Below are positions 8,372 through 49,845 of a stretch of DNA of 64,000 bases, one piece after another; within the stretch, counting starts at the first letter, position 1; the number at the start of each line of letters is the position of its first letter. This DNA is from Pelobacter propionicus DSM 2379 (GTDB taxonomy: Bacteria > Desulfobacterota > Desulfuromonadia > Geobacterales > Pseudopelobacteraceae). The stretch lies in assembly GCF_000015045.1 (NCBI RefSeq), contig NC_008609.1:2303501-2367500 (forward strand). Direction: 5' to 3'. The notes below the pieces were generated by a model. That model searched no databases and was not told where the DNA came from. It saw only the letters and a program-made list of their open reading frames with translations. A program made the translations under genes and the position numbers.

Positions 8372-8374
8372 GAC

Positions 8375-10189: not shown

Positions 10190-10318
10190 ACGACTGCCCA
10201 GCCCGCATCTGGCAGCGGATGACCATGCTTCTGCATCGTTCCCCATCATGTCGCGCATGTTTGCCGCAACTGTCCATGATGTAAAGGCAGTGATTCATTG
10301 CCGGAGGCACACTTTTCG

Positions 10319-10357
10319 CAAAAAAACCTCCCGCTTCGATGAAGGGGGAGGTTTTTG
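10319..10357. terminator. Bidirectional terminator between recD and the rubrerythrin-like gene
   Basis: An A-rich run, ACCTCCC, a short loop, GGGGGAGGT and a T run form a stem usable in both directions. It lies between two convergent genes, 130 bp after recD and about 30 bp after the end of the minus-strand gene. Confidence 0.8.
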
Positions 10358-10388
10358 TATACCGCTTTGGCCGCGCAGCCGGTATTAT

Positions 10389-10853
10389 TCAGATATTCTT
10401 CCGTATTTCAGAGAGTTGCGCGAAATGCTTGCGCTCTTCTTCGATGATCGCGTCGATGGATTTCTGGTCGTCCGCGCTCACGAAAGCCTTCAGTTCCGTG
10501 TAATAGAGAATGGCGTCCATCTCCCGCTGGATGGCGAAGTCCAGGGCGCTGGCAACGTCGAAGGACTTCAGCGCGCAGGTATCGTCAGTGAAGAACACCT
10601 TGCCGTCGATGTAGTTGTGGAGGTAGGCGAGATATTCGCCCGGATAATCCTCGGTCGGCTCATACAGAGTTACCTGGGAAAGAAACTTTTCGAATGTTTT
10701 CTTATGCTCTGCCTCTTCGGAGGCCAGGTGCTGAAACAATTTTTTCGCTTCGCTCTTCTCGGACAGTTCGGCGGCCTTACGATAAAAGAGCCCACCATTC
10801 TCCTCCATGCGTACGGCAAACTGCAAAACATCACTGGCTGCAAAAATGCTCAT
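10389..10853 (-). CDS. Rubrerythrin/ferritin-like di-iron protein
   Basis: A 154-residue helical protein. Two helix pairs carry the ferritin-like di-iron ligands: a Glu in RMEENGGLFY with EEAEH in the first half, and REMDAILYY with EEERKH in the second. This matches the rubrerythrin diiron domain. No C-terminal rubredoxin Cys4 domain is present. Such proteins in anaerobes usually reduce peroxide or handle iron under oxidative stress. The ATG at 10853 is chosen because AAGGAG lies just upstream. It is monocistronic, with its own strong promoter at 10892-10920. Exact substrate is unknown. Confidence 0.82.
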   Translation of the reverse strand: MSIFAASDVLQFAVRMEENGGLFYRKAAELSEKSEAKKLFQHLASEEAEHKKTFEKFLSQVTLYEPTEDYPGEYLAYLHNYIDGKVFFTDDTCALKSFDVASALDFAIQREMDAILYYTELKAFVSADDQKSIDAIIEEERKHFAQLSEIRKNI

Positions 10854-10891
10854 TTGATTGAACTCCTTCCGTATGCGGTTATTTGGCGGGC

Positions 10892-10920
10892 ATACTACCA
10901 CCCAAAAAGGTGGGTGTCAA
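10892..10920 (-). promoter_or_regulatory. Sigma-70 promoter with built-in inverted repeat, rubrerythrin-like gene
   Basis: Reading the minus strand, TTGACA (10920-10915), a 17-bp spacer and TAGTAT (10897-10892) form a good promoter about 40 bp from the ATG. The inverted repeat CACCCA-N6-TGGGTG (10899-10916) overlaps the spacer and the edge of the -35 box, where a repressor would block polymerase. The regulator is unknown. Confidence 0.65.
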
Positions 10921-11362
10921 TCGGCATTGAACCCTGTTTTAGCATCAACGGCGGGGTTCGATCATCACCCCTTGTCGCGGCATAGGACAACCTGATCAGC
11001 GTCCCCGCCTCCCCTGCGTAGCCCACCTCCCCTGCCAGCTATCACGGCGTTCACTTCATGCCTCAAAAACGTAAAAAACGGAATTGACATACTAATGAAA
11101 ATGCAACATACGTTATTGGAACTCTTTGCCATCTGGACCGGCAGGCCGGAGATCAATGTACTACATCCTGCACGGCCTCCAACGAGGAACAGCCGAGGCC
11201 ACGGAAATATCGCAGAGAAGAACTGTGCAACGACCCAAGGGGTAAAACGGCATTGTGATTGACCAGACTGGGGTCAGAAGGAACTATTTGTCACGCGTGG
11301 CCGCAAATCCGCGCGACAATCATCAACGCGGCATCGAAACCACATTCGCAAAGGAGCGTAAC
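10921..11362. other. Intergenic region between divergent genes
   Basis: No gene is supported in these about 440 bases. A TTGACA near 11083 has no well-placed -10 box. The upstream in-frame extension of the chemoreceptor gene (from 11255) lacks a ribosome-binding site and coding character. Confidence 0.5.
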
Positions 11363-12679
11363 ATGAGCAGAATGGCGGGAAGTTTTGCGGGCAACAACGC
11401 CGCTAGCGGCGGTCTTTATTCCCATCTGTACGGGTGGTACATGAGCATCAAGCTCCGCCACAAGATCGCCCTGCTGGTCGGCTGCAACCTGGCATTCGTC
11501 GCGGCGGCCGCCGGGGCCGGACTGCATGCGCTGCATTCGCTCTCCGCCCAGATGACCGCGGCCGGCATCGCCGCCGAGTTCCAGCGCACGGCATCGGATG
11601 CGTTTTCACACCTGCTGATCAGCGCCGGTTCATTGTTCACTATTGCCATGATCCTGGGGATATTCTTCGGCTACCTGGTCTTCAAGTCAGTGGCGGATCC
11701 CCTTGCCATCGTCACCGAGGTCGTGGAGGCGGTCGAATCCGGCGATCTGACGGTGCGGGCAAGCATCCCCTACGGCGGCGGACTGGGAAGACTGGCCCTG
11801 AAGGTCAACAGCATGGCCGACCAGACCCTGGAGGTGATCAGCAAGCTCGCTTCGGCAATCGACCAGTTGGGATCGAGCACATCCAACCTGCGCACAAGCT
11901 CCACCAATCTGGAGTCAGCTGTGAGCAATGCGACGATGCAGTCGGCCACCTCGGCGTCGGCCGCCGAGGAGATGTATTCCACGGCCGAGGAAATCGCCAG
12001 GAACTGTTCCCTGGCTGCGGAGAGCTCACGGCAGACCAGCACCGCTGCCCGCAACAGCGAGCAGGTCATCCTCGAGACCGCCTCGCTCATGGATAACCTG
12101 GCCCAAGGGGCGCTCAAGACCTCGGAAATCGTCCAGAACCTGGGGAAGAGCTCGGACAAGATCGAGGAGATTGTCGACACCATCGAGGAGATTGCCGACC
12201 AGACCAACCTGCTGGCGCTGAATGCGGCCATCGAGGCCGCCCGCGCCGGAGACCACGGCAGAGGCTTCGCGGTCGTGGCCGACGAGGTGCGCGGCCTGGC
12301 GGAACGAACCGCTATGGCGACCAAGGAAATCTCGGTGATGATCAAGGATATCCAGAACCAGACAAAGAACGTGGTCAGTTCAATGGAGCAGGAATCCGAG
12401 AAGGTCAGGCACGGAGCCATGGAGTCGGAAAAATCGGGTCAGGCCGTTTCGGAGATTCTGGATCTCGTGTCGCAACTGGACGACAAGGTCGCGCAGATCG
12501 CCACGGCAGCGGAGCAGCAGTCGGTGACTACCCGCGAGGTGACCATGAGCCTGCAGCAGATCTCGGAAGCAGTTCACACCGCGGCTGATCAGGCCAAGAG
12601 CGGAATCCAGGAATCCACCTCACTGGGAGATTTGACCGAAACCCTGAAGGGGATCGTCAACAGCTACAAAACAGCCTGA
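11363..12679 (+). CDS. Methyl-accepting chemotaxis protein with almost no periplasmic domain
   Basis: A 438-residue chemoreceptor. TM1 (about 35-57) and TM2 (about 84-107) are separated by only about 26 residues, so there is no room for a normal periplasmic ligand domain. A HAMP domain follows ([12 protein letters not shown]), then a long coiled-coil signalling domain. The conserved hairpin tip [18 protein letters not shown] (about 279-296) binds CheA/CheW. The ATG at 11363 follows AAGGAG and is preferred to an in-frame start 108 bp upstream. No other che genes are nearby. The input could be membrane- or cytoplasm-derived, such as energy state or redox; this is inference. Confidence 0.88.
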
Positions 12680-12847
12680 CATCGACACCCTTGCACCCGG
12701 TTACGTGGGCCGTTGCGACATGCTTGACTCAAACCAGAGAGAGCACGATTTCGTTATCAGTCATTAATTACGTCTGGCACTTTTATGCAATTATGCTATA
12801 GGTAATTTCACTCGAACTGCAAAAAACTTGATGCGGAGTCATGAGCC

Positions 12848-13294
12848 ATGCCCCCATTTCAGCGTATGCCAGCCCTATCAACCCGTGCCGGTTTCACCCT
12901 GGTCGAGCTGATCGTGGTCACCGCCATATTGGGCGTCCTGGCCATGATGGCCATTCCAGCTTTCAACGACTACAAAACGCAAGCCCAAAACAAACGCAGC
13001 GCCGGCGACATCCGTACCATAGAAAAAGCGATCACCGCCCATATCCTGGACAGGAACAGCCTGCCCGCATCCCTGGCCGACATCGGCATGGCAACCCTGA
13101 TGGACCCCTGGGGACGTCCCTACCAGTACAACAAGGGCAGCTTACTGGACGACGGCTTAAACAAACTGAACGATGACTTCGACCTGTACTCAACGGGCAA
13201 GGATGGAACCAGTGATCCTGACGGCTCCAAACCTGAAAGTGCGGACGACATTGTACGGATGAATGACGGCGGTTATGCCGGCGAGAGATCATGA
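12848..13294 (+). CDS. GspG-like type II pseudopilin / prepilin
   Basis: The 148-residue protein has a short charged leader ending in Gly, then FTLVELIVV, the type IV prepilin peptidase site (cleavage G|F, conserved Glu+5), and a hydrophobic N-terminal helix. The C-terminal half contains DPWGRPYQY and DLYSTGKDG, the signature of the GspG major pseudopilin, whose loop binds calcium. It is an orphan: no other general secretion pathway genes are nearby. It is followed after 3 bp by a zinc-ribbon membrane protein, so the two form an operon. It may belong to a T2SS or pilus system encoded elsewhere. Confidence 0.85.
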   Translation: MPPFQRMPALSTRAGFTLVELIVVTAILGVLAMMAIPAFNDYKTQAQNKRSAGDIRTIEKAITAHILDRNSLPASLADIGMATLMDPWGRPYQYNKGSLLDDGLNKLNDDFDLYSTGKDGTSDPDGSKPESADDIVRMNDGGYAGERS

Positions 13295-13297
13295 CCC

Positions 13298-14353
13298 ATG
13301 AAAGATACTGACGATTTTGCGTTTCAGTTCGAACAACCGCAGGCCGCCCCTCCCCAGGATGACGAACCTGGCAGTGCCAGCCAGGCGCCAGCCACAAGCC
13401 TGACCTGTTCCTGTCCCACATGCGGGGCGGACGTGGAGACGCAACCCACGGAAGCTGATCAGCCCCTAGCCGTAACCTGTCCTGCCTGCAACATCGCACT
13501 CTCGATCATCAGAGAATCCAGCGCCAACAGGGTACGCCGGCGGTCCCGAAAGCTAAGCTGCGCCAACTGCGGCAGCCTCCTGGACCATCACAGCCACTGC
13601 ACCTCCTGCGGAACGCTCTTCCCCGACTACCATGTGGCGGTCAAGCCGGAGGAGGTGTTGCGCAAGGCCAGGACGCAACGCCTATCCGACGTAAGGCAGT
13701 CTCTTGCCAGATTCAACATCCCGCTGTACTTCGACTTTTTCCGAAAACCGGTGCAGGAACAACGACAGCGCCGTCCCGAGCCTGCCGCCGCTTCCTCCAA
13801 GTCGCTGGTTACGCCGCGCCTGCAACGCCTGCTGATCTCACTGCTGATAGCCACCGTTCTGGTCGGAGGCCTCTCCTATGCCTTCCGCATCTACATGAAG
13901 CAGCAGCAGTTCGCCAAGAGCTACGCCAAAGCGATCTACAGCATGAAAACAGGCGCTGATTTCAACCAGAAAGTCTGCGACAGAATCGAGACTGAATGGA
14001 AAACCGCGCAGGAGAGCGGAGCCGCCTTCTCGCCGGGCCAGAACGACGAGGAAAAGGCCAGGACTGACAAGATCCGCGGCGAGGTAGCCAAAATCATGGG
14101 ACAGTTGGACAATCCTCCCAAAAAATTCGCCCAAGCGCATCAGAAGCTGATCCAACTGCGCGGCGCCTACCAAAATACACTTGATCTGGCCGCCTCGCCA
14201 CCGGAAATCCTGCAGGCCTTTACCACATCGGTCGATCAGGCGGAATCAGGCTTTAAGACAGCGGCCCAGGATCTGAAGGGCAGCATGCCGGACGCTCTCA
14301 AGGAGGAATTCGAGAGGGCAAAGCAGAAGTATCGCGGCTTGAAGGATTTCTGA
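13298..14353 (+). CDS. Zinc-ribbon single-pass membrane protein, unknown function
   Basis: A 351-residue protein of no family I recognise. Two zinc-ribbon-like clusters lie near the N-terminus: CPTC...CPAC (about 39-67) and CANCG...CTSCG (about 87-104). A basic stretch and one transmembrane helix (RLLISLLIATVLVGGLSYAF, about 178-197) follow. The C-terminal about 150 residues are helical and charged, probably extracytoplasmic. It begins 3 bp after the pseudopilin gene, which suggests a role in assembling or using that pseudopilin; this is inferred from position only. Confidence 0.6.
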   Translation: MKDTDDFAFQFEQPQAAPPQDDEPGSASQAPATSLTCSCPTCGADVETQPTEADQPLAVTCPACNIALSIIRESSANRVRRRSRKLSCANCGSLLDHHSHCTSCGTLFPDYHVAVKPEEVLRKARTQRLSDVRQSLARFNIPLYFDFFRKPVQEQRQRRPEPAAASSKSLVTPRLQRLLISLLIATVLVGGLSYAFRIYMKQQQFAKSYAKAIYSMKTGADFNQKVCDRIETEWKTAQESGAAFSPGQNDEEKARTDKIRGEVAKIMGQLDNPPKKFAQAHQKLIQLRGAYQNTLDLAASPPEILQAFTTSVDQAESGFKTAAQDLKGSMPDALKEEFERAKQKYRGLKDF

Positions 14354-14376
14354 TTTTCCCATCCCGGCGCAAATAG

Positions 14377-14409
14377 GAGGAGCGATCTGATGGCCGCTCC
14401 TCTTCTTTT
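14377..14409 (+). terminator. Intrinsic terminator after the pseudopilin operon
   Basis: GAGGAGCG and CGCTCCTC form an 8-bp stem with a 10-nt loop, followed by TTCTTTT, 24 nt after the stop codon. Confidence 0.7.
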
Positions 14410-14559
14410 CGCCTCCATCATCTTTTCCCATCGCCGAGATTACCCTCCCCATAGTCGACGGGATTACAGCCGACGAACAGCCCTGCACCAGCAACTGAAA
14501 CTGTCTCGTACATCACCGCGCCGGAACGTCCACGTCCCCACTCCCGAGGCGATTGACCG

Positions 14560-14588
14560 TTGACAGGTTGCCTGTGGGCATCTAGAGT
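14560..14588 (+). promoter_or_regulatory. Sigma-70 promoter of the alanine symporter gene
   Basis: TTGACA at 14560-14565, a 17-bp spacer and TAGAGT at 14583-14588; the gene starts 57 bp downstream. Confidence 0.65.
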
Positions 14589-14644
14589 ACACTCCTCAAA
14601 AGAATGAGCAGAGCCTACAAACCAGCGGAGAGGTAACAAAAGGG

Positions 14645-16039
14645 ATGAGCGAACTGAACGAGATGTTGGGCCAGTTGAGCAGCTATGTCTGGGGCGTGCC
14701 GCTGCTGGTGCTGCTGGTGGGCACCGGTATCCTGCTTACCGTCCGACTCAGGCTGCTGCAACTGTTTCTGCTGCCCCACGCCCTGGCCGAGACGTTCCTC
14801 AAACCGACATCCACGGAACAGGGCGATATCAGCCATTTCCAGGCGTTGATGGTCGCCCTCGCCGCCACCATCGGCACCGGTAACATCATCGGCGTCGCCA
14901 CAGCCATTTCCGTGGGCGGCCCCGGCGCGCTGTTCTGGATGTGGATAACCGCCGCCTTCGGCATGGCAACCAAATACGCCGAGGGGGTGCTGGCGGTGAA
15001 GTACCGGGTGCAGGATGCAAACGGGGAAATGTGCGGCGGTCCCATGTACTACATCGAACGGGGCCTGGGTATGAAGTGGCTGGGCGTGCTGTTCGCCCTG
15101 TTCGGCTCCATAGCCGCCTTCGGCATCGGCAACATGGTGCAGGCCAACGCAGTTGCCGGCAACCTGAAGGAGACCTTGGGGCTCGATCCGTTCGTCACGG
15201 GAATCGCCCTGACCATCTTCACCGCCCTGGTTATCCTGGGGGGGGTAAAGAACATCGGCCGAGTTTCGGCTATCATGGTTCCAGTCATGGCGATTATCTA
15301 CGCGGCCGGCTGTCTTGCCATCCTGTTCCGCCATGCCGGGCAGGTGCCCGGCGCCCTGTTCCAGGTGTTCCACGACGCATTCACCGGAACAGCCGCCAGC
15401 GGCGGATTCCTCGGCTCCGCCGTGATGATCGCCATCCAGAAGGGGGTCTCGCGGGGCGTATTCTCCAACGAATCAGGGATGGGCAGCGCACCCATCGCCG
15501 CGGCAGCTGCCAAGACCAATGAGCCGTGCGAGCAGGCCCTGGTATCCATGACCGGCACTTTCATCGATACAATCGTCATCTGCAGCATGACCGGCCTGGT
15601 GCTGATCGTGACCGGCGCATGGAACTCGGGGGCGGAGGTGTCGGTCATGACCAAGGCGGCCTTTGACAGCGGCCTGCCTGGCACCTGGGGCGGATTCATC
15701 GTCTCCTTCGGCATCGTCTTCTTTGCCTACTCCACCATCGTCGGTTGGGCCTACTATGGCGAAAAATGCCTGGAGTACCTGCTGGGAAGAGGTGCGGTCC
15801 TCCCCTATCGCCTGGTCTTCTCGGCCTTCGTCTTCGTGGGTGCCTGCGTCAAACTCGATCTCGTCTGGAGCTTCGCTGACATCATGAACGGGTTGATGGC
15901 GGTGCCAAACCTGATCGCCCTCTTGGGGCTGTCCGGGGTGGTGGTTGCCGAGACAAACCGCTTCCTGGCCGCGCGCAGGGGGATCCGGGGTGGAGACGAT
16001 GGTCCCCTTCCCGAGGCTGCAGCCGCCGATGCGGGCTGA
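14645..16039 (+). CDS. Sodium:alanine symporter family protein (AGCS)
   Basis: A 464-residue polytopic membrane protein with about 10-11 hydrophobic helices. The family motif NESGMGSAPIAAAAA (from about residue 276) and the early segment ALAATIGTGNIIGVATAIS place it in the alanine-or-glycine:cation symporter family (AlsT/DagA type). These import alanine or glycine with sodium or protons. Its length is typical. The ATG is preceded by a GAGAGG-like site. It is transcribed alone from its own promoter. The exact substrate within the family cannot be told from sequence. Confidence 0.9.
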   Translation: MSELNEMLGQLSSYVWGVPLLVLLVGTGILLTVRLRLLQLFLLPHALAETFLKPTSTEQGDISHFQALMVALAATIGTGNIIGVATAISVGGPGALFWMWITAAFGMATKYAEGVLAVKYRVQDANGEMCGGPMYYIERGLGMKWLGVLFALFGSIAAFGIGNMVQANAVAGNLKETLGLDPFVTGIALTIFTALVILGGVKNIGRVSAIMVPVMAIIYAAGCLAILFRHAGQVPGALFQVFHDAFTGTAASGGFLGSAVMIAIQKGVSRGVFSNESGMGSAPIAAAAAKTNEPCEQALVSMTGTFIDTIVICSMTGLVLIVTGAWNSGAEVSVMTKAAFDSGLPGTWGGFIVSFGIVFFAYSTIVGWAYYGEKCLEYLLGRGAVLPYRLVFSAFVFVGACVKLDLVWSFADIMNGLMAVPNLIALLGLSGVVVAETNRFLAARRGIRGGDDGPLPEAAAADAG

Positions 16040-31717: not shown

Positions 31718-32389
31718 CTAAAAACCCCCGACTCCCCCCTCCGCCTTCAACCGGCTCCGTATCGCCTGGAAGCATGCCCGCGTCAGGTAGCCGCACCAGG
31801 TTATGATTCCCGTCAACTTGAACCCGTCTTCCCAGAAGATGCGCCAGGGAGAAATCCAGAGGTCATCGAAGAAATCGATCACCAGGGCAGTCCCGAAAAA
31901 CAGCAACGCCACAAGCAGCAGAACATACTCGGAACGCAGCAGCAGGTTCTGGAACCTGACCACATACCACACCATAAACAGCCCATAGGCCACATAGAGC
32001 GCCTTTCCGTAGGCCCAACTCCCCAGATAGCGATGGAGCAGGTCATCGTGGACGAGGAACAGGTCGTCCAGCGCCAGCAACGCGGTGAAGAGGCCGGAAC
32101 AGAGAAAAAAAGAGCTCTCACCGTCTCCAACGCCGCACTCGTAGCGCAGAATCCCATGGCTGAAGATGCACACCGCCGCAGTGGCGCACCAGATCAGCAC
32201 ACCGATGTTGGATTGCACGCCGGTGAGCGGGTGCGCTTCCAGGGTTGCCATGGCATCCCGGCAGAAGAACGCGGGCTGGATCTCACCCAAAATACTGGCC
32301 AGCGCGGTGCAGAGCAGGATGGCAAACGCCGGTGCGCAGATCGCGGCACAAACAGGGAGAGGTGGCAGAGCCGTTCTGGGGATCAGCAT
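31718..32389 (-). CDS. Polytopic membrane protein with acidic/histidine motifs, unknown
   Basis: A 223-residue protein with about six hydrophobic helices. I do not recognise the family. Polar residues inside or beside helices stand out: LLALDDLFLVHDDLLHR, LVIDFFDDLW and FWEDGFKLTGIITW. Such buried Asp/His sets occur in metal-dependent membrane hydrolases such as the CREST group, but that link is speculative. The ATG at 32389 has AGGAG six bases upstream and is preferred to the in-frame start 39 bp earlier. It is divergent from the PEP-mutase operon across 204 bp, so a link with that pathway is possible but unproven. Confidence 0.55.
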   Translation of the reverse strand: MLIPRTALPPLPVCAAICAPAFAILLCTALASILGEIQPAFFCRDAMATLEAHPLTGVQSNIGVLIWCATAAVCIFSHGILRYECGVGDGESSFFLCSGLFTALLALDDLFLVHDDLLHRYLGSWAYGKALYVAYGLFMVWYVVRFQNLLLRSEYVLLLVALLFFGTALVIDFFDDLWISPWRIFWEDGFKLTGIITWCGYLTRACFQAIRSRLKAEGGVGGF

Positions 32390-32432: not shown

Positions 32433-32438
32433 TATAAT
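32433..32438 (+). promoter_or_regulatory. Possible -10 box of the PEP-mutase operon
   Basis: A perfect TATAAT lies 155 bp before the dehydrogenase ATG in the divergent intergenic region. No good -35 box is at 16-18 bp (GGAGTT is the best), so activator dependence or chance are both possible. Confidence 0.35.
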
Positions 32439-32593
32439 CCTACACAAGAATCGGCTGCTGCACAGCCCCACCCACTCAGGAAGGCGATTTCCGGAATTGA
32501 AGCAACGCCACACGCCGGAGAACGCCCATGCTACGTACACCAGTAACAAGCCGTCAGCAACTCGACGCCAGCCATACAGGGAGGGTGCATACC

Positions 32594-33601
32594 ATGAACG
32601 TCCTGATTGCAAGTTCAATTGACGGAGAGGCGATCGAAAGGCTTGAGCAGGAGCACCAGGTCATCCGCGCTTTCCCGAACAGTAGCGAGGAGAGCCTGCA
32701 CGCGCTGATTCGCGACTGCGAAGCCCTGGTGTTCCGCAGCGGCATACGGGTAAGCGCCGACCTGATGGGGTGCGCGCCCAGGCTGAAGCTGCTGGTGCGC
32801 GCCGGTTCGGGGATGGACAACCTTGACGTGGAATACGCCCGAAAGCGGGGGGTACAACTGGTGCGCATACCGCAACCATCGGCCAGGGCCGTGGCGGAAA
32901 TGGCCTTCGCCTTCATGCTGGCACTCAGCCGCCGCCTGCTTGAGGCCGACCGCTCCATGCGCAACGGGCGCTGGGAAAAGCACGAATTTTCCGGATACCT
33001 CCTGCGGGACAAGACGCTGGGTGTCGTGGGCATCGGCAACACCGGCAGCTGCGTTGCCCAGATGGGGGTTGCCTGGGGCATGCGGGTTATCGGCTGCGTC
33101 CAGCACCCTTCCCGGGAGCGGGAGGAAGGCTTCTGCGAAAAGGGGATTCAGATGCTGGAGTTCGACCAGGTCATAGCCAATGCCGATTATCTGAGCATCC
33201 ACGTCCCGCTCAAGGATAACACGCGCAGGCTCCTGGACGCCGATGCGCTGAGTCGCATGAAACCGGGCGCATACCTGATCAACCTGGCACGGGGGGGCAT
33301 TGTCGACGAGCAGGCTTTGTATGAATCGCTGACACACAACGGCGGACTGAGGGGGGCGGCGCTGGACGTCCACGAGCATGAGGGTCAGGGCTGCATGTCG
33401 CCCTTGGCAATGCTGAACAACGTCATCCTCACGCCGCACATCGGCGCCATGGCCATCGATGCCCAGCGGGAGATCGGCCAGAAGGTGGTCGAAATCATCG
33501 ACGCCTTCGCGAACGCACACGGCAGCGACGCATGGCAGGGAAAGGTGGCCGAAGTGGCCCAGGGCTATACCCGCATCCAGGGGGAGGTGAACCGTGGCTA
33601 G
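32594..33601 (+). CDS. D-2-hydroxyacid dehydrogenase, possible phosphonopyruvate reductase
   Basis: A 335-residue NAD-dependent D-isomer-specific 2-hydroxyacid dehydrogenase. The catalytic set is present: [10 protein letters not shown] early, GVVGIGNTG (nucleotide-binding GxGxxG), [11 protein letters not shown] (Arg), and an acidic HEHEG block followed by LTPHIGAM (His). It resembles the SerA catalytic half but lacks an ACT domain. It overlaps the PEP-mutase start by 8 bp, so the two are co-translated. In known phosphonate pathways a related dehydrogenase reduces phosphonopyruvate to phosphonolactate, and that role is proposed here. The alternative is another 2-oxoacid. The ATG at 32594 follows GGGAGGG. 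Confidence 0.8.
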
Positions 33602-34487
33602 GAAGACGACCCAGTTCAGGCAGCTGCTGAACTCCGGCGGGATAGAGTTTCTGCTGGAGGCGCACGACGGCATGAGTGCCAGAATCGTTGAGGAGGCCGG
33701 GTTCAAGGGGATCTGGGGAAGTGGCCTCTGCATCTCCGCCGCCATGGGGGTGCGGGACAACAACGAGGCCAGCTGGACCCAGGTTCTGGAGGTCATGGAG
33801 TTCATGAGCGACGCCACCAGCATCCCCATCCTGCTGGACGCCGACACCGGCTACGGCAATTTCAACAACGTGCGCAGGCTGGTGAAAAAGCTCGAACAGC
33901 GCGGCGTGGCGGCCATGTGCATCGAGGACAAGCTCTTCCCCAAGACCAATTCGTTCATCAAGGGAGAAACCCAACCGCTGGCCGACGTGGACGAATTCTG
34001 CGGCAAGATCAAGGCAGCCAAGGACACCCAGGCCGATGCCGACTTCTGCGTCGTCGCCAGGGTGGAGGCGCTGATCACCGGCCAGGGGCAGGACGAGGCG
34101 CTGCGTCGGGCTGACGCCTACCAGCGGGCAGGGGCTGATGCGATCCTGATCCACAGCAAGAAACCCACTGCCGAGGAGATTCTGGCCTTCATGGGAGAGT
34201 GGCGCGACACATTGCCGGTGGTTATCGTGCCGACGACCTATTTCAACACCCCACCCGAAGTATTCGCCCAGGCCGGCATCAGCCTGGTCATCTGGGGCAA
34301 CCATCTGATGCGGGCAAGCATCACCGCCATGCAACTGACAGCGGCACGCATCAATCGGGACAGATCCCTGTCGGGCGTGGAGCAGGAAATTGCCACGGTA
34401 AAGGAGATCTTCCGGCTGCAGAATGCCCAGGAACTGGCGCAGGCGGAAGAGCGCTATCTGCCGGCACATGGCCGCCCGCCGCTATGA
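33594..34487 (+). CDS. pepM: Phosphoenolpyruvate phosphomutase
   Basis: A 297-residue protein of the isocitrate lyase/PEP mutase superfamily. The signature [11 protein letters not shown], which separates PEP mutases from lyases such as PrpB, is intact, as are [24 protein letters not shown] and [10 protein letters not shown]. The enzyme rearranges phosphoenolpyruvate to phosphonopyruvate, the entry step of almost all C-P bond biosynthesis. The start codon is GTG at 33594, within the end of the dehydrogenase gene. No phosphonopyruvate decarboxylase is in the window. Confidence 0.9.
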
Positions 34488-34595
34488 GTGCGGCCGGGTG
34501 ATGTACTCTTCCCCGCTCACCCGTACCCGCTGCGCAGGTCGCCTGCCCTCCCCCTCTTGGTGGCCGCAGACAGGCCGTGCGAAGAGAGGAGAGAG

Positions 34596-35831
34596 ATGAT
34601 GACACCATCGGCTTCCAACAAACAAAAGCAGCCCTTCGCGCTGGTAATCGGCCTCGATCACGTGAACGGCATCCAGACGGCGCGCATACTGGCCGATCGC
34701 GGCGTAGCAGTCATCGGTGTTGCCAAGGATCCGGAGCACTACTGCTGCCGGACGCGGGTCTGCTCGCGCATCGTCTTCACCGACACCACCAGCGATGCGC
34801 TGATCGACTCACTGGAAACACTGGGGCCAGAACTAGGAGAGAAGGGGGTCCTGTTCCCCTGCCTGGATCCCCAGGTACTTCTGGTGTCACGCAATCGCCA
34901 GAGGCTGGAGCCCTGGTACCACATCATCCTGCCCGATCCGGACGTGGTCGAGATGCTGATGGACAAGACCAGCTTTTACCGTTACGCCCAGCTAAACGGC
35001 TTCCCCATACCGCGCACCCTGTTCATAGCCAGCAGTGATGACGCAGAAAAGGCTGCCCGGGAACTGACCTTCCCCTGCATGATCAAGCCGCCGCTCAGCG
35101 GCACGCCGCAGTGGGAGCAGAAGAGCAAACTCAAGGCATACCTGGTTTCGACGCCGGAGGAATTTCTCGAGGTTTACCGGCGCTACGCGGCACTGTCCGA
35201 CATACTCATCGCCCAGGAGTGGGTTGTGGGCCCGGTGAGTAGCCTCTATTCGTGCAACTGCTACTTTGACGCGGCCTCACGGCCGGTTGTCACCTTCATC
35301 GCCCGAAAGCTGCGTCAATGGCCTCCCCAGACCGGCGAGAGCTGTCTGGGGGAAGAGTGCCGCAACGACCAGGTGCTAGGCGAGACTATCCGCCTGTTTT
35401 CGGCCGTCAACTATCGCGGCCTTGGCTACGTGGAGATGAAACGGGACGAGCGCACGGGAAGGCACTACATCATCGAACCGAACGTGGGAAGGCCGACAGG
35501 TCGGTCACCCATCGCGGAGGCAGGTGGCGTGGAACTGGTCTACACGATGTATTGCGACGCCATCGGTCGACCACTGCCCGTGCAACGGGAGCAGCACTAC
35601 GGGAACGTGAAATGGATCTACCTGCGACGGGACCTGCAGTCGGCGCTGTATCACTGGCGGCGGGGGGAGCTCACCTTCAGCGACTGGCTGCGCTCGCTGC
35701 GCGGCCGGAAGGTGGATGCGCTGTTCGCCTGGAATGATCCGGGACCGTTTATCGGCGACCTGACCAGGTCGGTCCGCCTGTACCTGAACCGGGACGAGCG
35801 CCGGAAGCGGGATTACAGCACCCCCTTCTAG
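34596..35831 (+). CDS. ATP-grasp carboxylate-amine ligase-like enzyme (COG3919-like)
   Basis: A 411-residue ATP-grasp protein with an N-terminal Rossmann-like segment (ALVIGLDHVNGIQTARIL), a lysine site (FPCMIKPPLSG) and metal-ligand segments near the end (GYVEMKRDERTGRHYIIEPN). Enzymes of this group join a carboxylate to an amine or thiol through an acyl phosphate. It follows pepM by 108 bp, and GAGGAG lies just before tandem ATGs at 34596 and 34599, either of which may start. In the cluster it could couple an amino acid to a phosphonate acid; the substrate is unknown. Confidence 0.75.
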   Translation: MMTPSASNKQKQPFALVIGLDHVNGIQTARILADRGVAVIGVAKDPEHYCCRTRVCSRIVFTDTTSDALIDSLETLGPELGEKGVLFPCLDPQVLLVSRNRQRLEPWYHIILPDPDVVEMLMDKTSFYRYAQLNGFPIPRTLFIASSDDAEKAARELTFPCMIKPPLSGTPQWEQKSKLKAYLVSTPEEFLEVYRRYAALSDILIAQEWVVGPVSSLYSCNCYFDAASRPVVTFIARKLRQWPPQTGESCLGEECRNDQVLGETIRLFSAVNYRGLGYVEMKRDERTGRHYIIEPNVGRPTGRSPIAEAGGVELVYTMYCDAIGRPLPVQREQHYGNVKWIYLRRDLQSALYHWRRGELTFSDWLRSLRGRKVDALFAWNDPGPFIGDLTRSVRLYLNRDERRKRDYSTPF

Positions 35832-35886
35832 CAATGCCCGAATCGCTGACAGCTCGCCGTACGCCGTCGGCTTGACAGGGAACGCC

Positions 35887-36969
35887 ATGAGAATCGTACG
35901 CACGCTGGACGAACATGCCTGGAGAAAGTTTGTTGCAGACCAGCAACTGGGCAACGTCTTCCACACGCCTGAAATGTTTCGCATGTTCGGGCGGGTGCCA
36001 GGATTTGTGCCCTCCCTGTGGGCCGCGGTGTCCGACGACGGAAGAATCCTGGCGTTGCTGCTCCCGGTACGGATCACCCTGCTGGGAAGCGTGCTCCGCC
36101 GGTTATCCACCCGTTCCGTGGTCTTCGGCGGCATCCTGGCTGACGACAGCCCGGAGGGGAGAAAGGCACTCGACCTGTTGCTGAGCAGCTATGTCAGGGA
36201 ACCTGACGGCGCACCGCTATTCACCGAACTGCGCAACCTGTCAAATACGGACTCATTCCGTGGGATCTTGCAGGATAACGGGTTCATGCACGAGGAACAC
36301 CTCAATTTCCTGATCAATCTGGAGTGCTCTCCCGATGCACTGCTGCAGAGCATCGGCCCCAGGACGCGCAAGGTTATCCGGCGGGGGCTTCGGGCAGCCC
36401 GTGTCGTTGTGAAAGAGGCAACCAATCTGCGTGATGTGGCGGCATGTTACGACATCCTCACCAGGACATACGAGGCAGCCCACGTACCCCTGGCCCCTTT
36501 CCCGCTCTTTCAGGCCGCCCATGATCTGCTTCTGCCCAGCGGCATGGTAAGGTTCAGCCTGGCTCGTATCGACGGCAGAGCAGTGGCAACCTCGGTGGAC
36601 CTGCTGTACAAGAAAACCGTCTACGGCTGGTACGGCGGCGTTGTCCGATCGTACAACGAGCACGCTCCCAATGAGCTTTTGACCTGGGATGTCCTGCAAT
36701 GGGGCGCCATGAATGGTTACGGCGTCTATGATTTTGGCGGTGCGGGGAAGCCGGACGAAACGTATGGCGTGCGTGATTTCAAGGCAAAATTCGGCGGCAA
36801 ACTGGTCAATTTCGGGAGAAGCACCTGTGTTCATGCTCCGGGACTGTTGAGATTGAGCAGATTGGGCTACCAGCTCATGCGAAAATATCTGTCACGAGCC
36901 GACCTCACAGGAATCCGCCACAGTCCGGCAACCTACTCCCCCTCCCCTCTGGCTGACAATTCCCCCTGA
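35887..36969 (+). CDS. FemAB/GNAT-type acyl or aminoacyl transferase
   Basis: A 360-residue protein with two GNAT-like halves typical of the FemAB family. Supporting segments are NVFHTPEMFRMFG, GPRTRKVIRRGLRAARVVVKE, YDILTRTYEAAHVPL, the GNAT core RIDGRAVATSVDLLYKKTVYGWYGG, and YDFGGAGKPDETYGVRDFKAKFGG. FemX/FemAB enzymes transfer amino acids from tRNA to peptidoglycan precursors, and relatives build natural-product peptides or act in exopolysaccharide systems. It is the last gene of the four-gene PEP-mutase unit. An in-frame TTG 15 bp upstream is less likely than the ATG at 35887. Confidence 0.75.
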   Translation: MRIVRTLDEHAWRKFVADQQLGNVFHTPEMFRMFGRVPGFVPSLWAAVSDDGRILALLLPVRITLLGSVLRRLSTRSVVFGGILADDSPEGRKALDLLLSSYVREPDGAPLFTELRNLSNTDSFRGILQDNGFMHEEHLNFLINLECSPDALLQSIGPRTRKVIRRGLRAARVVVKEATNLRDVAACYDILTRTYEAAHVPLAPFPLFQAAHDLLLPSGMVRFSLARIDGRAVATSVDLLYKKTVYGWYGGVVRSYNEHAPNELLTWDVLQWGAMNGYGVYDFGGAGKPDETYGVRDFKAKFGGKLVNFGRSTCVHAPGLLRLSRLGYQLMRKYLSRADLTGIRHSPATYSPSPLADNSP

Positions 36970-41449: not shown

Positions 41450-42841
41450 TTGTTATTGTTCCAACCAAACACCGTATCCTCACCATCAAAAAGAAAACAG
41501 GGTATCCCGGCGCGCAAGCTACTGTGCGTGTCGCCTGACGGAGCACGTCAGGCCTCCGCCCAACCCCTTGCCGAAGAAGGCTGGGACATACTGACGGCAC
41601 CTGACCTGAAACTGGCCAGGGAGTTGACCAGGCAGCATAAAGACTGTCATGTGGGACTGCTCTTTCTGAAAAGTGGTACGGATGCCTACCTGAACCAAAT
41701 TGAAGAAGTCCTGATGGTGAACAACCAGATTGAATGGATTTCCGTCTTGCCCCCCGAATGCATGCAATCACGTGACCTCTGCGCATTCGTTATCAAGAAC
41801 TCCTACGACTATCACACCCTTCCACTGGATATCCCCCGTTTGCATTTTATTCTCGGGCATGCATACGGCAAGGCTCTGCTGAAATGCAAAGTTGCCGGCA
41901 GGGAACAGGTTATCGGCCAGAACCAGATGATCGGAACAAGCGCGCCAATGCGTGACCTGTATGCAAGAATCATCAAAATACAAAAAGTCGAGTCACCCGT
42001 CCTTATCCACGGGGAGAGCGGTACGGGCAAGGAGCTTGCGGCGCGTGCGATTCACCAGAATTCATCGCGTTGCCAGGCGCCTTTTGTCGCGGTGAATTGC
42101 GGGGCCTTGCCGACACACCTCATCCAAAGCGAATTATTCGGACACGAGAAAGGGGCTTTTACCGGAGCAACCCAGAGAAAGATCGGCCGCATCGAATCGG
42201 CGGCGGGTGGAACCATCTTTCTGGACGAGATCGGAGATCTTTCACAGGAACTCCAGGTAAACCTTTTGCGGTTCTTGCAGGAAAAGACCATCGAGCGTGT
42301 CGGCTCAAACCAGACCATTGAAGTTGACGTGCGCGTTATAGCCGCTACCCATGTGAACCTGGAAAAAGCCGTGGAACAGGGTGTTTTTCGCGAGGACCTC
42401 TATTACCGACTGAATGTCCTGCGTCTGGATATTCCACCATTACGCGAACGAGTCGGGGACATAGAAATCCTGGCGCTCACTTTTTTTGAAAAATTCTCCG
42501 AAGAAAAGAACCCCGTGGTCAAGGGATTCAGCCAGCAGACCTTGAATATCATGGCTGAATATGACTGGCCGGGTAATGTTAGAGAAATGATAAATCGAAT
42601 ACGAAGGGCGATGGTGATGAGCGAGAACCGGCTGATCACACCCGCTGACCTGGAGCTGGACAATCTGGTGGTCTTAAACAAATCGCTATCGCTGGATGAT
42701 GCGCGAGTGCTGGCGGAAACCGAGATAATCCAGCATTCCCTCATACAGAACAACAAGAATGTCTCCAAGACCGCGCGCGATCTCGGCGTATCGCGCGTTA
42801 CGCTGTACAGGTTGATAAACAAACTGAATATCATCGTCTAG
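41450..42841 (+). CDS. VpsR-like sigma-54-dependent activator
   Basis: A 463-residue enhancer-binding protein. The N-terminal about 125 residues resemble a receiver domain, but the position of the phospho-acceptor reads GLLFLKSG with no Asp, as in VpsR/FleQ-type regulators that sense cyclic-di-GMP instead of phosphate. The AAA+ core has Walker A GESGTGKE (188-195), the sigma-54 contact loop GAFTGA (235-240), Walker B GTIFLDEIGD and REDLYYRL. A Fis-type helix-turn-helix closes the protein (ARDLGVSRVTLYRLINKL). The start is probably TTG at 41450 behind GGGGTGAG. It is 44 bp ahead of the FapF-like gene and presumably controls the locus. Confidence 0.85.
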   Translation: MLLFQPNTVSSPSKRKQGIPARKLLCVSPDGARQASAQPLAEEGWDILTAPDLKLARELTRQHKDCHVGLLFLKSGTDAYLNQIEEVLMVNNQIEWISVLPPECMQSRDLCAFVIKNSYDYHTLPLDIPRLHFILGHAYGKALLKCKVAGREQVIGQNQMIGTSAPMRDLYARIIKIQKVESPVLIHGESGTGKELAARAIHQNSSRCQAPFVAVNCGALPTHLIQSELFGHEKGAFTGATQRKIGRIESAAGGTIFLDEIGDLSQELQVNLLRFLQEKTIERVGSNQTIEVDVRVIAATHVNLEKAVEQGVFREDLYYRLNVLRLDIPPLRERVGDIEILALTFFEKFSEEKNPVVKGFSQQTLNIMAEYDWPGNVREMINRIRRAMVMSENRLITPADLELDNLVVLNKSLSLDDARVLAETEIIQHSLIQNNKNVSKTARDLGVSRVTLYRLINKLNIIV

Positions 42842-44358: not shown

Positions 44359-44841
44359 CTAATGAAGTACGTTACGCAATTGCTGGTCGATTCTCGACAC
44401 CAGGTTTATGTCGCGAAGCATGCTGATACCGTTCACCGTTGCATCAATGATCGTCATGTTCTGGATGGTTTTCTGGTTTGCGCCATTCTGGATAAGTATC
44501 CGGTTTCCCATGTTCTGAACGAACGTCGCACTTTGCGACTGAAGATTGCTGATCTGTATCGGCGTTATGGCGTTTTGCACACCCAGGCCGGAGATATTCA
44601 GAGAGCTGGTCGTTTGCAGCACGCCATCCACGATAACGGCCTTCACGATCCCCAGTGATATTTCCAAACCGCCGCGCGCCACAAACCCGCCACGCATGCT
44701 GCTCAGATCATGGTCCGACACGACTCTCCATTCCTCGAATGCATCATTCATGGCCGCATATGCGGGACAGTTGGCTGACATGGCCATAAGCCCCATCACA
44801 AAAACCGCGCCTCTAATGTGTTTTCCCAGTAGAGTCGTCAT
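44359..44841 (-). CDS. Secreted Fap-locus protein with double-glycine-like motif
   Basis: A 160-residue protein with a signal peptide (to about residue 30, PAYAA). HDLSSMRGGF (44-53) then resembles the double-glycine leader site cleaved by C39 peptidases. The C-terminal part has VQNMGNRILIQNG, a motif shared with the two other secreted proteins of the locus. It may be a minor fibre component comparable to FapE or FapA. Its ATG overlaps the stop of the C39 gene (ATGA), so the two are translationally coupled. GGAGGAG lies 8 nt before the ATG at 44841. Confidence 0.65.
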   Translation of the reverse strand: MTTLLGKHIRGAVFVMGLMAMSANCPAYAAMNDAFEEWRVVSDHDLSSMRGGFVARGGLEISLGIVKAVIVDGVLQTTSSLNISGLGVQNAITPIQISNLQSQSATFVQNMGNRILIQNGANQKTIQNMTIIDATVNGISMLRDINLVSRIDQQLRNVLH

Positions 44842-45551
44842 GGCAGTACTCCTCCCGAACCAGGCAAAAGCATGGTTATGCTTGCCAGATCGCTGTTTTT
44901 CAGGGCGAGACCGAGTGGAGCCTTTTCCCTGACGCAGCGCCATTCTTCCAGACGATTGAAATTGTTTTCAGACCGGACGCTCCTGTTCCGGATGATAAAC
45001 ACCAGGCCGTTCCACATCTTTTCAAACTCGTTTCGCGCTACGATCCTCGTTCCCAGTCCCGGATCACCCACCAGCACCCTCTTGTCGGTCACCCCTTTCA
45101 CCACCACGAAATGCCGGTACCCCTTCATATTGACCAGGACGATGGCCGGCACACCAGCCAGGGCCAGTTTGTCCAGCTCAACCCTGTAGCCATCGGCAAG
45201 GTAGCCATGGGCTTCCAGGAAGTATTTCATGTCCAGCAGCGAAAAGCCTTCACGACGAATTTTTTCCTGCTCGCCGTGGGTATACATCCATTTGAAGACT
45301 TCCTGCTCGCTGACCCGGTCTTCGTAGTGGTGCGTCAGCAGGGTGGCCAATGCCGCGGACCCGCAACTGAAGTCATATTTCTGGTGGATGGTCGAGCGGT
45401 AACGAGCCTCTTTCAGGCTCGTTACATTGCTGACAATGAGAGCACCACCCGACATGCCAGGCACAAGTACCGTCCCCGCATCAACGCGGGCAACTGCCAG
45501 GATGAGGGTAACGACCAGAATAGCCGTATGGATTGTCAACAGACGCTTCAT
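44838..45551 (-). CDS. FapD-like C39-family cysteine protease
   Basis: A 237-residue protein with an N-terminal signal or anchor (LTIHTAILVVTLILAVARVDA) and a C39-type papain-fold domain. The catalytic triad is visible: Cys63 in DFSCGSAAL, His147 in YRHFVVVKG and Asp163 in VGDPGLG, with the oxyanion Gln57. FapD, the protease of the Fap amyloid system, has this form and lacks the ABC-transporter domains of bacteriocin exporters. It probably trims one or more of the secreted proteins of the locus. The 17-bp gap behind the FapA-like gene indicates one operon. Confidence 0.8.
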   Translation of the reverse strand: MKRLLTIHTAILVVTLILAVARVDAGTVLVPGMSGGALIVSNVTSLKEARYRSTIHQKYDFSCGSAALATLLTHHYEDRVSEQEVFKWMYTHGEQEKIRREGFSLLDMKYFLEAHGYLADGYRVELDKLALAGVPAIVLVNMKGYRHFVVVKGVTDKRVLVGDPGLGTRIVARNEFEKMWNGLVFIIRNRSVRSENNFNRLEEWRCVREKAPLGLALKNSDLASITMLLPGSGGVLP

Positions 45552-45568
45552 GGGATCGTGCGCTCGAT

Positions 45569-45967
45569 TCAGTGCATGGTTACGTTGACGATCAGATCAT
45601 TCTGGATGAGCACCTGATTGCCCGAGTTCTGGATAACGGTGGCAAATCCACTCATATTGGTGAACGCGCCACTACTCACGCTGTTGTAGCCAGAGACTGT
45701 TGAGCCAACAATACTGTTACCATCCTGATACGCGTTATTGGTGCTCGTGCTGTAGACCAAATCCAGGTTATCGATCTGCATGGCCTGGCGTCCCGACAGT
45801 GATGCCAGGTTTTCTCCGGCCAAGGCCTGCCCGAATCCGGTTACCTCCAGCGTTGTCTGCTCCTGTGCCGGAGTCGGCAACGCCTGTTCCGCCTGCGATT
45901 CCTGCGAGGCCAGTATGCCGCCGAAAAGAACAAGCGCAGCAATCGTGGATGCCGTGATTCTTAGCAT
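45569..45967 (-). CDS. FapA-like small secreted protein
   Basis: A 132-residue protein: signal peptide to about ESQA (26), then LASLSGRQAMQIDNLDLVYS and a C-terminal VIQNSGNQVLIQNDLIVNV. The QNSGxQ block recurs in the amyloid-like subunit and the 160-residue partner, so the three probably share a beta-rich assembly motif. A role as chaperone or minor subunit, like FapA or FapB, fits the locus. The ATG at 45967 has GGAGGTGG upstream and is preferred to an in-frame ATG 84 bp earlier that lies across the terminator. Confidence 0.65.
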   Translation of the reverse strand: MLRITASTIAALVLFGGILASQESQAEQALPTPAQEQTTLEVTGFGQALAGENLASLSGRQAMQIDNLDLVYSTSTNNAYQDGNSIVGSTVSGYNSVSSGAFTNMSGFATVIQNSGNQVLIQNDLIVNVTMH

Positions 45968-46021
45968 TTTCACCACCTCCCGGTCGGTTTCAAAATCATC
46001 ATCTAGGCGCCGGTTGGAATG

Positions 46022-46056
46022 CAAAAAACCTGGTGGCGTTAGTAACGCCACCAGGT
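46022..46056 (-). terminator. Terminator/attenuator between amyloid subunit and FapA-like gene
   Basis: On the minus strand ACCTGGTGGCGTTA and TAACGCCACCAGGT form a perfect 14-bp inverted repeat with a single central base, then six T residues. It lies 18 bp after the amyloid stop codon and upstream of the FapA-like gene, so readthrough would set the subunit-to-accessory ratio. Confidence 0.85.
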
Positions 46057-49760: not shown

Positions 49761-49845
49761 GTCGCCGAAAGGGTAAAGCACGGGTAACCGTGTGGCACAA
49801 AGCCACCACCCAGCACAAGCTGGGCAGAGGAGCTGCCGAAGTGAC
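49761..49845 (+). promoter_or_regulatory. GEMM-I (cyclic-di-GMP-I) riboswitch aptamer
   Basis: P1 forms from GTCGC (49761) and GTGAC (49841). The first arm reads GGGTAAA, a GUAA tetraloop hairpin (GCACGG/CCGTGT), then GGCACAAAGCC, matching GGGCAAA-hairpin-GACGCAAAGCC of the family. The second arm closes with GGCAGAGGAGCTGCCGA, equivalent to the conserved GGTAGCGGGGTTACCGA. The G of GGGTAAA at the ligand-contact position favours cyclic-di-GMP over the cGAMP-selective variant, tentatively. Confidence 0.85.

Follow-up and report, generated by a model that had tools for sequence, protein, structure and literature searches.

Gene content of the locus

The window analyzed here is a 64,000-nucleotide stretch of the Pelobacter propionicus DSM 2379 genome (contig NC_008609.1, positions 2,303,501 to 2,367,500). 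It contains four tandem genes, encoding a D-2-hydroxyacid dehydrogenase (DH), a phosphoenolpyruvate (PEP) mutase (PepM), an ATP-grasp enzyme and a FemAB-like transferase, and a divergent gene for a membrane protein, here called C6 (Table 1). The first three of these genes form an inherited unit, which is found in a PepM clade of its own where DH takes the place of the decarboxylase. With modest confidence, we favor the view that they are part of a module that forms phosphonolactate and attaches it to an acceptor in the cell envelope, most likely a surface glycan.

A preliminary description of this DNA had proposed a four-gene phosphonate pathway. All four genes were confirmed on the forward strand between 32594 and 36969, as was the reported overlap of DH and PepM. 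The earlier start at 32433 is too early, as the DH frame opens only at 32528; the likely ATG of DH is preceded by a purine-rich stretch resembling a ribosome-binding site. PepM starts with GTG, the ATP-grasp gene with ATG at 34596 or 34599, and the FemAB-like gene with ATG in a frame open from a TTG at 35872. C6, missed in the preliminary description, travels with the cluster. A promoter scan of the divergent region returned no promoter-like site, but two terminator-like sites on the reverse strand.

Table 1. Genes of the cluster and their positions in the window
Feature	Position	Strand	Remarks
D-2-hydroxyacid dehydrogenase (DH, P0001), 335 aa	32594..33601	+	PF02826/PF00389; proposed phosphonopyruvate reductase
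PEP mutase PepM (P0002), 297 aa	33594..34487	+	TIGR02320 above cut-off; overlaps DH by 8 bp
ATP-grasp enzyme (P0003), about 411 aa	34596..35831	+	Predicted ATP-grasp fold; proposed carboxylate-activating ligase for phosphonolactate
FemAB/GNAT-fold transferase (P0004), about 360 aa	35887..36969	+	PF13480, PF02388
C6, multi-pass membrane protein, 223 aa from conserved Met	31718..32389	-	Open frame to 32428; divergent from cluster

Predicted functions of the encoded proteins

PepM scored 385.8 bits against TIGR02320 (cut-off 319.55), and its best match in the PDB, aligned over the full length, was PEP mutase (1m1b/1pym, 426 bits). The protein is not fused to another domain and carries EDKxxxxxNS, which we take to be the PEP mutase motif; by cut-off and motif it is predicted to be a PEP mutase. 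Phosphonopyruvate hydrolase was rejected as an identity (269.7 bits against a cut-off of 374.4). At E 0.001, this is the one PepM in the genome (4.24 Mb, 3 contigs).

The absence of a decarboxylase, which the preliminary description had noted for the cluster, holds genome-wide: TIGR03297, the model for phosphonopyruvate decarboxylase, gave five weak matches, the best with 61.4 bits against a cut-off of 312.5. The idea of a decarboxylase hidden elsewhere in the genome was therefore rejected. The same search in 14 control genomes returned nothing above the cut-off (13 had matches below it), so that this set held no positive control; on the decarboxylase from one control PepM locus the model scored 405.8.

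DH matched PF02826 (183.1 bits) and PF00389 (87.1 bits). Residues R233, E263, and H282, presumably the Arg-Glu-His catalytic set of 2-hydroxyacid dehydrogenases, did not vary in either set of sequences (24 aligned, 25 compared); from both domains and this set, a D-2-hydroxyacid dehydrogenase is predicted. The enzyme comes nearest to phosphoglycerate dehydrogenases (TIGR01327, 281.4 bits, short of the cut-off of 454). It shares with phosphoglycerate-dehydrogenase-like enzymes R48 (in all 24 sequences that have a residue at this position) and R69 (in all 25), which we assume to correspond to the phosphate-binding arginines of phosphoglycerate dehydrogenase. DH and its relatives nevertheless fall on their own side of a branch (support 100) separating them from eight SerA-like enzymes of the class, from which they differ in the pocket residues S72 (23/25), I92, H260, and G264 (24/25). 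The Asp that ends the second strand of the NAD site was present in 8/8 SerA-like enzymes, but 21 of the 25 DH sequences have Val there (V169 in the window) and two have Asp. Because this Asp is replaced, DH probably uses NADPH and would hence work in the direction of reduction. The SerA-like outgroup is itself mixed or partly misaligned, since four of the eight sequences lack an Arg at aligned position 233.

For the third gene, Pfam alone gave a weak CPSase_L_D2 match (25.9 bits). A structure model (pLDDT 90.4) compared by VIA matched 2pn1 (Z 27.8, root-mean-square deviation (rmsd) 3.0, 294 residues aligned), PurK (26.8), PylC (25.7), and the L-amino-acid ligase 3vot (25.5); an ATP-grasp fold is predicted from this model. 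A profile search of the PDB at E 0.001 returned four matches, all of them carboxylate-amine ligases: D-Ala-D-Ala ligase twice, a protein of the S6 modification type, and cyanophycin synthase. K126 and K166 were invariant and E282, E296, and N298 nearly so, at positions which we take to be the ATP and metal ligands of ATP-grasp enzymes. Aligned with 23 orthologues from related loci, the protein shows 48-76% identity; over the 24 sequences, mean column identity was 56%, and the C-terminal part likewise has invariant residues. At one related locus (L018, 2135-3286), the homologue lacks about 40 alignment columns present in the others and may be degraded or misassembled.

The FemAB-like protein exceeded the Pfam gathering scores of PF13480 (72.4 bits, gathering 22) and PF02388 (35.7 bits, gathering 24), and its best PDB match was FemX. 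Its best NCBIfam match was TIGR03019, the XrtA/PEP-CTERM-associated FemAB family, but its 61.7 bits fall short of the cut-off of 260.35, and membership was rejected; among its relatives, three from polysaccharide loci reached 108-127 bits.

C6 has no Pfam or NCBIfam family. Eight sequences share the invariant residues S73 N74, D121 D122 xFLxH127, and E200 D201 G xK, and the model built from them is a helical membrane bundle (pLDDT 80.5). Foldseek gave no match at E 0.001 or better; its weak matches include Myomaker (E 1.6). By VIA the best Z was 8.5 (rmsd 4.2, 162 residues aligned), with G-protein-coupled receptors and rhodopsins alike, which lies within the range of helical bundles. From the conserved acidic residues and His one may guess at an enzyme or a metal site. 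In one genome of the class (G125), in which no close PepM was found, a C6 homologue adjoins a GT2 glycosyltransferase (L115, 5106-5765).

A PepM clade with a dehydrogenase in place of the decarboxylase

Scanning one genome per species yielded 431 relatives of PepM. The 80 most similar to the window PepM were kept, so that proportions among these do not describe PepM genes at large. Together with hits from the class they gave a tree of 85 proteins, built by a quick method (L082 and L085, which belong to the genomes of L002 and L020, were omitted). One branch (SH-aLRT 98) comprises 29 proteins, 26 of them with DH in the locus, versus 56 proteins outside it, none with DH. For the comparison of gene content, 30 clade loci, namely the window, the 28 other members of the branch (some as longer stretches) and L110, were set against 56 control loci. 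As L110 was found through an ATP-grasp search, it is no independent witness for the link to that enzyme. Twelve near-duplicate control loci were left out of family clustering, yet are counted among the 56.

By hidden Markov models (HMMs), DH and the ATP-grasp enzyme were each detected in 27 of the 30 clade loci and in none of the control loci. Wherever a clade locus has DH, the gene lies directly upstream of PepM on the same strand (27/27), an arrangement seen in no control locus; a survey of pepM neighborhoods had been suggested in the preliminary description, and its proposal that PepM is paired with a 2-hydroxyacid dehydrogenase instead of a decarboxylase is borne out. Control loci showed the opposite content: the decarboxylase was found in 53 of 56, a PepM-fused nucleotidyltransferase domain in 44, and the family of 2-aminoethylphosphonate (AEP) transaminases and nucleotidyltransferases in 55, compared with 0/30 clade loci in each case (family identities by NCBIfam). 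The 'fusion' label in the tree denotes an open frame of more than 480 aa and no more; 41 of the 56 control PepM fall under it, and a family search in one of them, L023, identified the C-terminal domain as nucleotidyltransferase-like (Arch_glmU, 54.7 bits, below the cut-off). The decarboxylase step of the AEP pathway is thus absent above cut-off from the window genome and from all clade loci. Likewise, the fused-domain HMM found no sign of Pnt-type nucleotidyl activation in the clade, other nucleotidyltransferase families not having been sought by name. The two PepM groups split cleanly into one with predicted decarboxylation, transamination, and nucleotidyl activation and one with predicted reduction and an ATP-grasp enzyme.

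According to the record titles, DH-bearing PepM come from Acidobacteriota, Bacteroidota, Chloroflexota, Planctomycetota, Thermodesulfobacteriota, Ignavibacteriota, Calditrichota, and Kiritimatiellota. Since the majority of these entries are metagenome bins, individual titles may be in error. Besides bins, the unit is present in a named strain (L017) and in assemblies of one to three contigs (G000, G113, G114). The protein distances of DH, PepM, and the ATP-grasp enzyme correlate over 25 loci (r 0.71, 0.66, and 0.58; none of 2000 permutations as high), which is partly expected from the common descent of whole genomes.

Three clade loci lack the ATP-grasp enzyme. In L012 and L047 the stretch ends a short way behind PepM, and an ATP-grasp protein of another kind, together with an aminotransferase, is present in L051. 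In the latter, from Myxococcota, a class I/II aminotransferase and an ATP-grasp_4 protein lie directly behind PepM (7977-11360), which looks like a phosphonoalanine-ligase route.

Among plasmids, PepM matched 142 records; the one neighborhood viewed, on a Streptomyces plasmid, was of the decarboxylase type. DH had no match in plasmid records at 1e-60. The ATP-grasp enzyme matched 49 records, and the 20 listed were about 29-30% identical.

Co-inheritance of the three genes

In a survey of 277 genomes of the class, PepM (E 1e-60) was present in seven. The same seven genomes held the orthologues of DH (at least 356 bits, 52-100% identity; next match 208 bits, 39%) and of the ATP-grasp enzyme (at least 434 bits, 50-100%; next match 189.5 bits, 32%), and in each of them the three genes lie within about 5 kb. 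The ATP-grasp gene is upheld as a conserved third partner. As the seven genomes belong to four genera, with four genomes in one of them, the number of independent events is smaller than seven. The one other genome of the genus of the window (G259) has neither PepM nor the DH and ATP-grasp orthologues; the distribution is patchy, as if the unit were passed on or lost whole. The class survey and the PepM tree reject chance adjacency, and DH, PepM, and the ATP-grasp enzyme are an inherited unit. Of the four genes grouped together in the preliminary description, these three are conserved; FemAB is no fixed member, being found in 10 of the 30 clade loci (nine by HMM, L034 by Pfam).

Using a profile that held members from these same genomes, C6 was detected at E 1e-5 in seven of the 277 genomes: six of the seven with the unit and one of the 270 others (G125).

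Among 395 genomes sampled from the phylum, an ATP-grasp homologue was present in five others. One (L110, 50% identity) belongs to a full unit, and the other four are 35-41% identical. Two of these distant homologues (L112 and L114) lie amid glycosyltransferases and an epimerase or FemAB protein, with no PepM among the called open frames; a third (L113) is on a 5-kb contig. The setting of these homologues suggests a broader family of ligases, frequently linked to surface polymers, with the type found in the window as its phosphonate branch.

Genomic setting of related loci

The surroundings of the unit were analyzed for a set of polysaccharide genes: Wzz/tyrosine kinase, Poly_export, initiating sugar transferase, GT2, DegT, and hexapeptide transferase, all assigned by Pfam on representatives. 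At least one of these was present in 11 of the 30 clade loci, or in 16 when deacetylase-like proteins, which fall below Pfam cut-offs, and (alginate-)lyase-like proteins were added. L110 also carries a Wzx-type flippase and L013 a UDP-GlcNAc 2-epimerase. L002, the locus closest to the window by both PepM and DH, is of the polysaccharide type, and its FemAB partner, 60-62% identical to that of the window, follows directly behind the ATP-grasp gene. FemAB also lies directly next to the ATP-grasp gene in the window, L006, L008, L013, L025, and L034.

Loci with C6 never overlap those with a P-loop protein or an HPrK-like kinase (16 loci). The unit therefore seems to exist in two versions, one often situated inside polysaccharide loci and one compact and accompanied by C6; the window combines C6 with FemAB. 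In four compact relatives without FemAB, C6 is followed by a protein of 288 aa (P0005), for which no homologue was found in the window genome in a search run without a positive control. Its resemblance to GNAT proteins is weak (Pfam E 0.033 and 0.012 in two of four members; hhalign E 0.011, probability 4%); in the PDB, N-acetyltransferases were reached at E 0.37-0.57, ranked below ribosomal protein S3.

Two accessory arrangements were also observed. At L006 (9023-10186 and 10196-10912), and in homologues, there are an HPrK-like kinase and a P-loop protein with weak resemblance to thymidylate kinase. At L034, the DH, PepM, ATP-grasp, and FemAB genes and an HPrK-like gene are followed downstream by a protein resembling nonribosomal peptide synthetases (NRPS), with condensation, carrier, and thioesterase domains (12580-15138).

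Proposed pathway and alternatives

In the pathway that we favor, PepM would rearrange PEP to phosphonopyruvate, and DH, probably with NADPH, would reduce it to phosphonolactate (2-hydroxy-3-phosphonopropionate), thereby pulling the unfavorable first step. Phosphonolactate would likely be the first stable intermediate. The ATP-grasp enzyme would then activate the carboxylate as an acyl phosphate and join it to an amine or a hydroxyl, and a GNAT-fold transferase (here FemAB), together with C6, would deliver the conjugate to the envelope or export it there, a surface glycan being its most likely site. With activation at the carboxylate rather than at the phosphonate, the latter would stay free in the finished decoration. 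The substrates, the cofactor, the last two steps, and the acceptor are inferred, and the parts of this scheme differ in strength. That DH reduces phosphonopyruvate is very probable, as supported by its place directly before PepM. Activation of the phosphonolactate carboxylate by the ATP-grasp enzyme, which we deduce from its close linkage to DH and PepM, is reasonably likely. A surface glycan as acceptor is tentative, and for the window it is suggested by relatives alone: polymer decoration, put forward in the preliminary description, stands as one possible outcome given the 11 relatives with polysaccharide genes, but no such gene lies beside the window cluster.

A number of observations weigh against this scheme. 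Polysaccharide genes are absent from the ten neighbors of the window cluster and from all seven loci bearing C6, the window included; even among clade loci of at least 13 kb they occur in only 7 of 17 (9 of 17 with the wider list). Their rarity in control loci (2/56) is biased, because clade loci were the source of the HMMs. Twenty of the 30 clade loci yielded no FemAB, although 10 of the 30 are shorter than 10 kb. The P-loop protein (12/30) and the HPrK-like kinase (10/30) could activate something else. Structure comparison of the ATP-grasp enzyme is unspecific, with PurK, PylC, biotin carboxylase, and L-amino-acid ligase scoring alike, and one distant homologue (L111, 41% identity) adjoins a permease, with no polysaccharide match there. 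Three clade loci have no DH in the stretch: in L018 another gene precedes PepM, in L025 no DH occurs within 11.6 kb, and L051 has the aminotransferase. The DH match of one genome (G110) contains an internal TGA, its query range (1-330) running past the end of the open frame. Finally, clade loci are shorter than control loci (median 13.6 vs 16.9 kb), which somewhat favors the zeros for decarboxylase, nucleotidyltransferase, and transaminase.

The same enzymes might instead make a diffusible phosphonopeptide or phosphonolactate conjugate, the ATP-grasp enzyme adding an amino acid and FemAB another from aminoacyl-tRNA, with C6 as exporter or immunity protein of the secreted product. Valinophos synthesis uses a 2-hydroxyacid dehydrogenase (PMC12871164) and the ATP-grasp enzyme VlpF (PMC12723261), phosphonoalamides are made with two ATP-grasp ligases, and GNAT-type tRNA-dependent enzymes take part in argolaphos, dehydrophos, and fosfazinomycin pathways (PMC11867202). 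The lack of polysaccharide genes around the window cluster and in the C6 loci agrees with such a product, as does the NRPS-like protein of L034. We nevertheless consider it unlikely: Pfam matches in the cluster and its ten neighbors include no transporter family (C6 matching no family at all), and polysaccharide genes accompany the unit in the 11 relatives, among them L002. In a further alternative, DH would act on something other than phosphonopyruvate, for instance a 2-keto acid of a serine or sugar pathway, and PepM would supply the ATP-grasp enzyme with phosphonopyruvate, or with phosphonoalanine through a general aminotransferase. The closeness of DH to phosphoglycerate dehydrogenases fits this, as do L051, with an aminotransferase and another ATP-grasp protein in place of DH, and L018, with PepM and the ATP-grasp enzyme but no DH upstream. 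The constant position of DH before PepM, seen in no control locus, and its own branch with changed pocket residues make this explanation quite improbable. Least probable is catabolism, in which DH would oxidize external phosphonolactate to phosphonopyruvate and PepM would run in its favored direction. The PepM equilibrium does favor PEP more than 500-fold (PMC12871164), but no importer family appeared among the Pfam matches of the cluster and its ten neighbors, a breakdown route offers no obvious role for the ATP-grasp and GNAT partners, and the dinucleotide site of DH lacks the NAD-type Asp.

Returning to attachment of phosphonolactate at the envelope, a broader version can be conceived in which the unit represents a separate logic of surface tailoring, spread over the eight phyla given in the record titles: a dedicated ATP-grasp enzyme would activate the phosphonolactate carboxylate, and GNAT-fold enzymes would transfer it to amino sugars or other acceptors. 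In this general form the proposal is speculative and rather doubtful; should it hold, C6 may be a new membrane component of the tailoring system.

Relation to known phosphonate pathways

Reduction of phosphonopyruvate to phosphonolactate is already known, as the preliminary description noted for a few natural-product pathways. It takes place in the valinophos pathway, and PMC12871164 treats it as a known branch, crediting the valinophos paper and another. As in our cluster, PepM in the valinophos producer Streptomyces durhamensis is followed by a 2-hydroxyacid dehydrogenase leading to phosphonolactate, plus an ATP-grasp enzyme (VlpB and VlpF; PMC12871164, PMC12723261, PMC11867202). VlpF esterifies valine (PMC12723261), and VlpB has been used as a phosphonopyruvate reductase in a study that also describes PnaB and PnaC (PMC11867202). 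The likeness of DH to VlpB is one of predicted function. Unlike valinophos, the window has FemAB and C6, some relatives have polysaccharide genes, and no gene of the window cluster was seen to lead toward dihydroxypropylphosphonate.

With the phosphonoalamide pathway (aminotransferase PnaA, ligases PnaB/PnaC; PMC11867202), the cluster shares the lack of a decarboxylase step and an ATP-grasp enzyme on the carboxylate side. It differs in having reduction in place of transamination and a single ATP-grasp enzyme; no aminotransferase family occurs among the Pfam matches of the cluster and its ten neighbors, so the window does not belong to that pathway, and L051 of the same clade looks like the transaminase version. 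The Pnt pathway, with cytidine-monophosphate-(CMP-)activated AEP and PntC, resembles our case in that its PepM clusters are predicted to decorate cell-surface glycans or lipids (PMC6697681). In contrast, none of the 30 clade loci has the PepM-fused domain, the decarboxylase, or the AEP transaminase, and the ATP-grasp enzyme would activate the carboxylate. FemAB proteins of XrtA/PEP-CTERM exopolysaccharide loci (TIGR03019) are the best NCBIfam match of the window FemAB, which, scoring below the cut-off, is not a member.

Most bacterial phosphonate capacity is thought to serve cell-surface tailoring, yet the making of phosphonate glycans and lipids is, according to PMC6697681, almost wholly obscure, and the activation described there is nucleotidyl transfer. 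The three-gene core, having neither a decarboxylase nor a PepM-type nucleotidyltransferase, offers a direct test case for a carboxylate-side route. If such a route exists, phosphonates would be exposed in free form, in contrast to CMP-activated AEP decorations; a polymer bearing them would differ in metal binding and charge and might serve as a hidden reserve of phosphorus. In that case, a PepM gene that lacks a decarboxylase could not be taken to signal a diffusible natural product.

What is new here is the conserved three-gene unit with PepM and DH clades of its own, its partial polysaccharide setting, the absence of a PepM-type nucleotidyltransferase, and C6. The literature searched held no description of a DH-PepM-ATP-grasp module, although most subscription literature lay outside the search, so that this is not proof of novelty. 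The branch-point inventory of Li and Horsman, 2022, reportedly mentions possible phosphonolactate clusters, and the valinophos paper, by its title, describes a route of broad conservation in nature; some loci of the clade may already be covered by one or the other.

Neighboring genes

The ten genes flanking the cluster on both sides serve other functions. By Pfam they encode proteins of the glutamate-synthase-like and iron-sulfur kinds, NAD synthetase, an AAA ATPase, EF-G, a sigma-54 activator, an outer-membrane-like protein, a C39 peptidase, and two proteins without a family. The C39 peptidase (237 aa, 79.3 bits) is part of a run of small genes on the reverse strand (44359-46051) with short proteins of 194 and 160 aa; the 194-aa protein has no Pfam family, and the outer-membrane-like protein (426 aa) adjoins the run on the forward strand. 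The sigma-54 activator (41450-42841, forward strand) has a VpsR domain (54.1 bits), which we take to indicate a type of polysaccharide and cyclic di-GMP regulator. On the same strand, a c-di-GMP-I riboswitch aptamer was detected at 49762-49840 (53.8 bits against a gathering score of 35).

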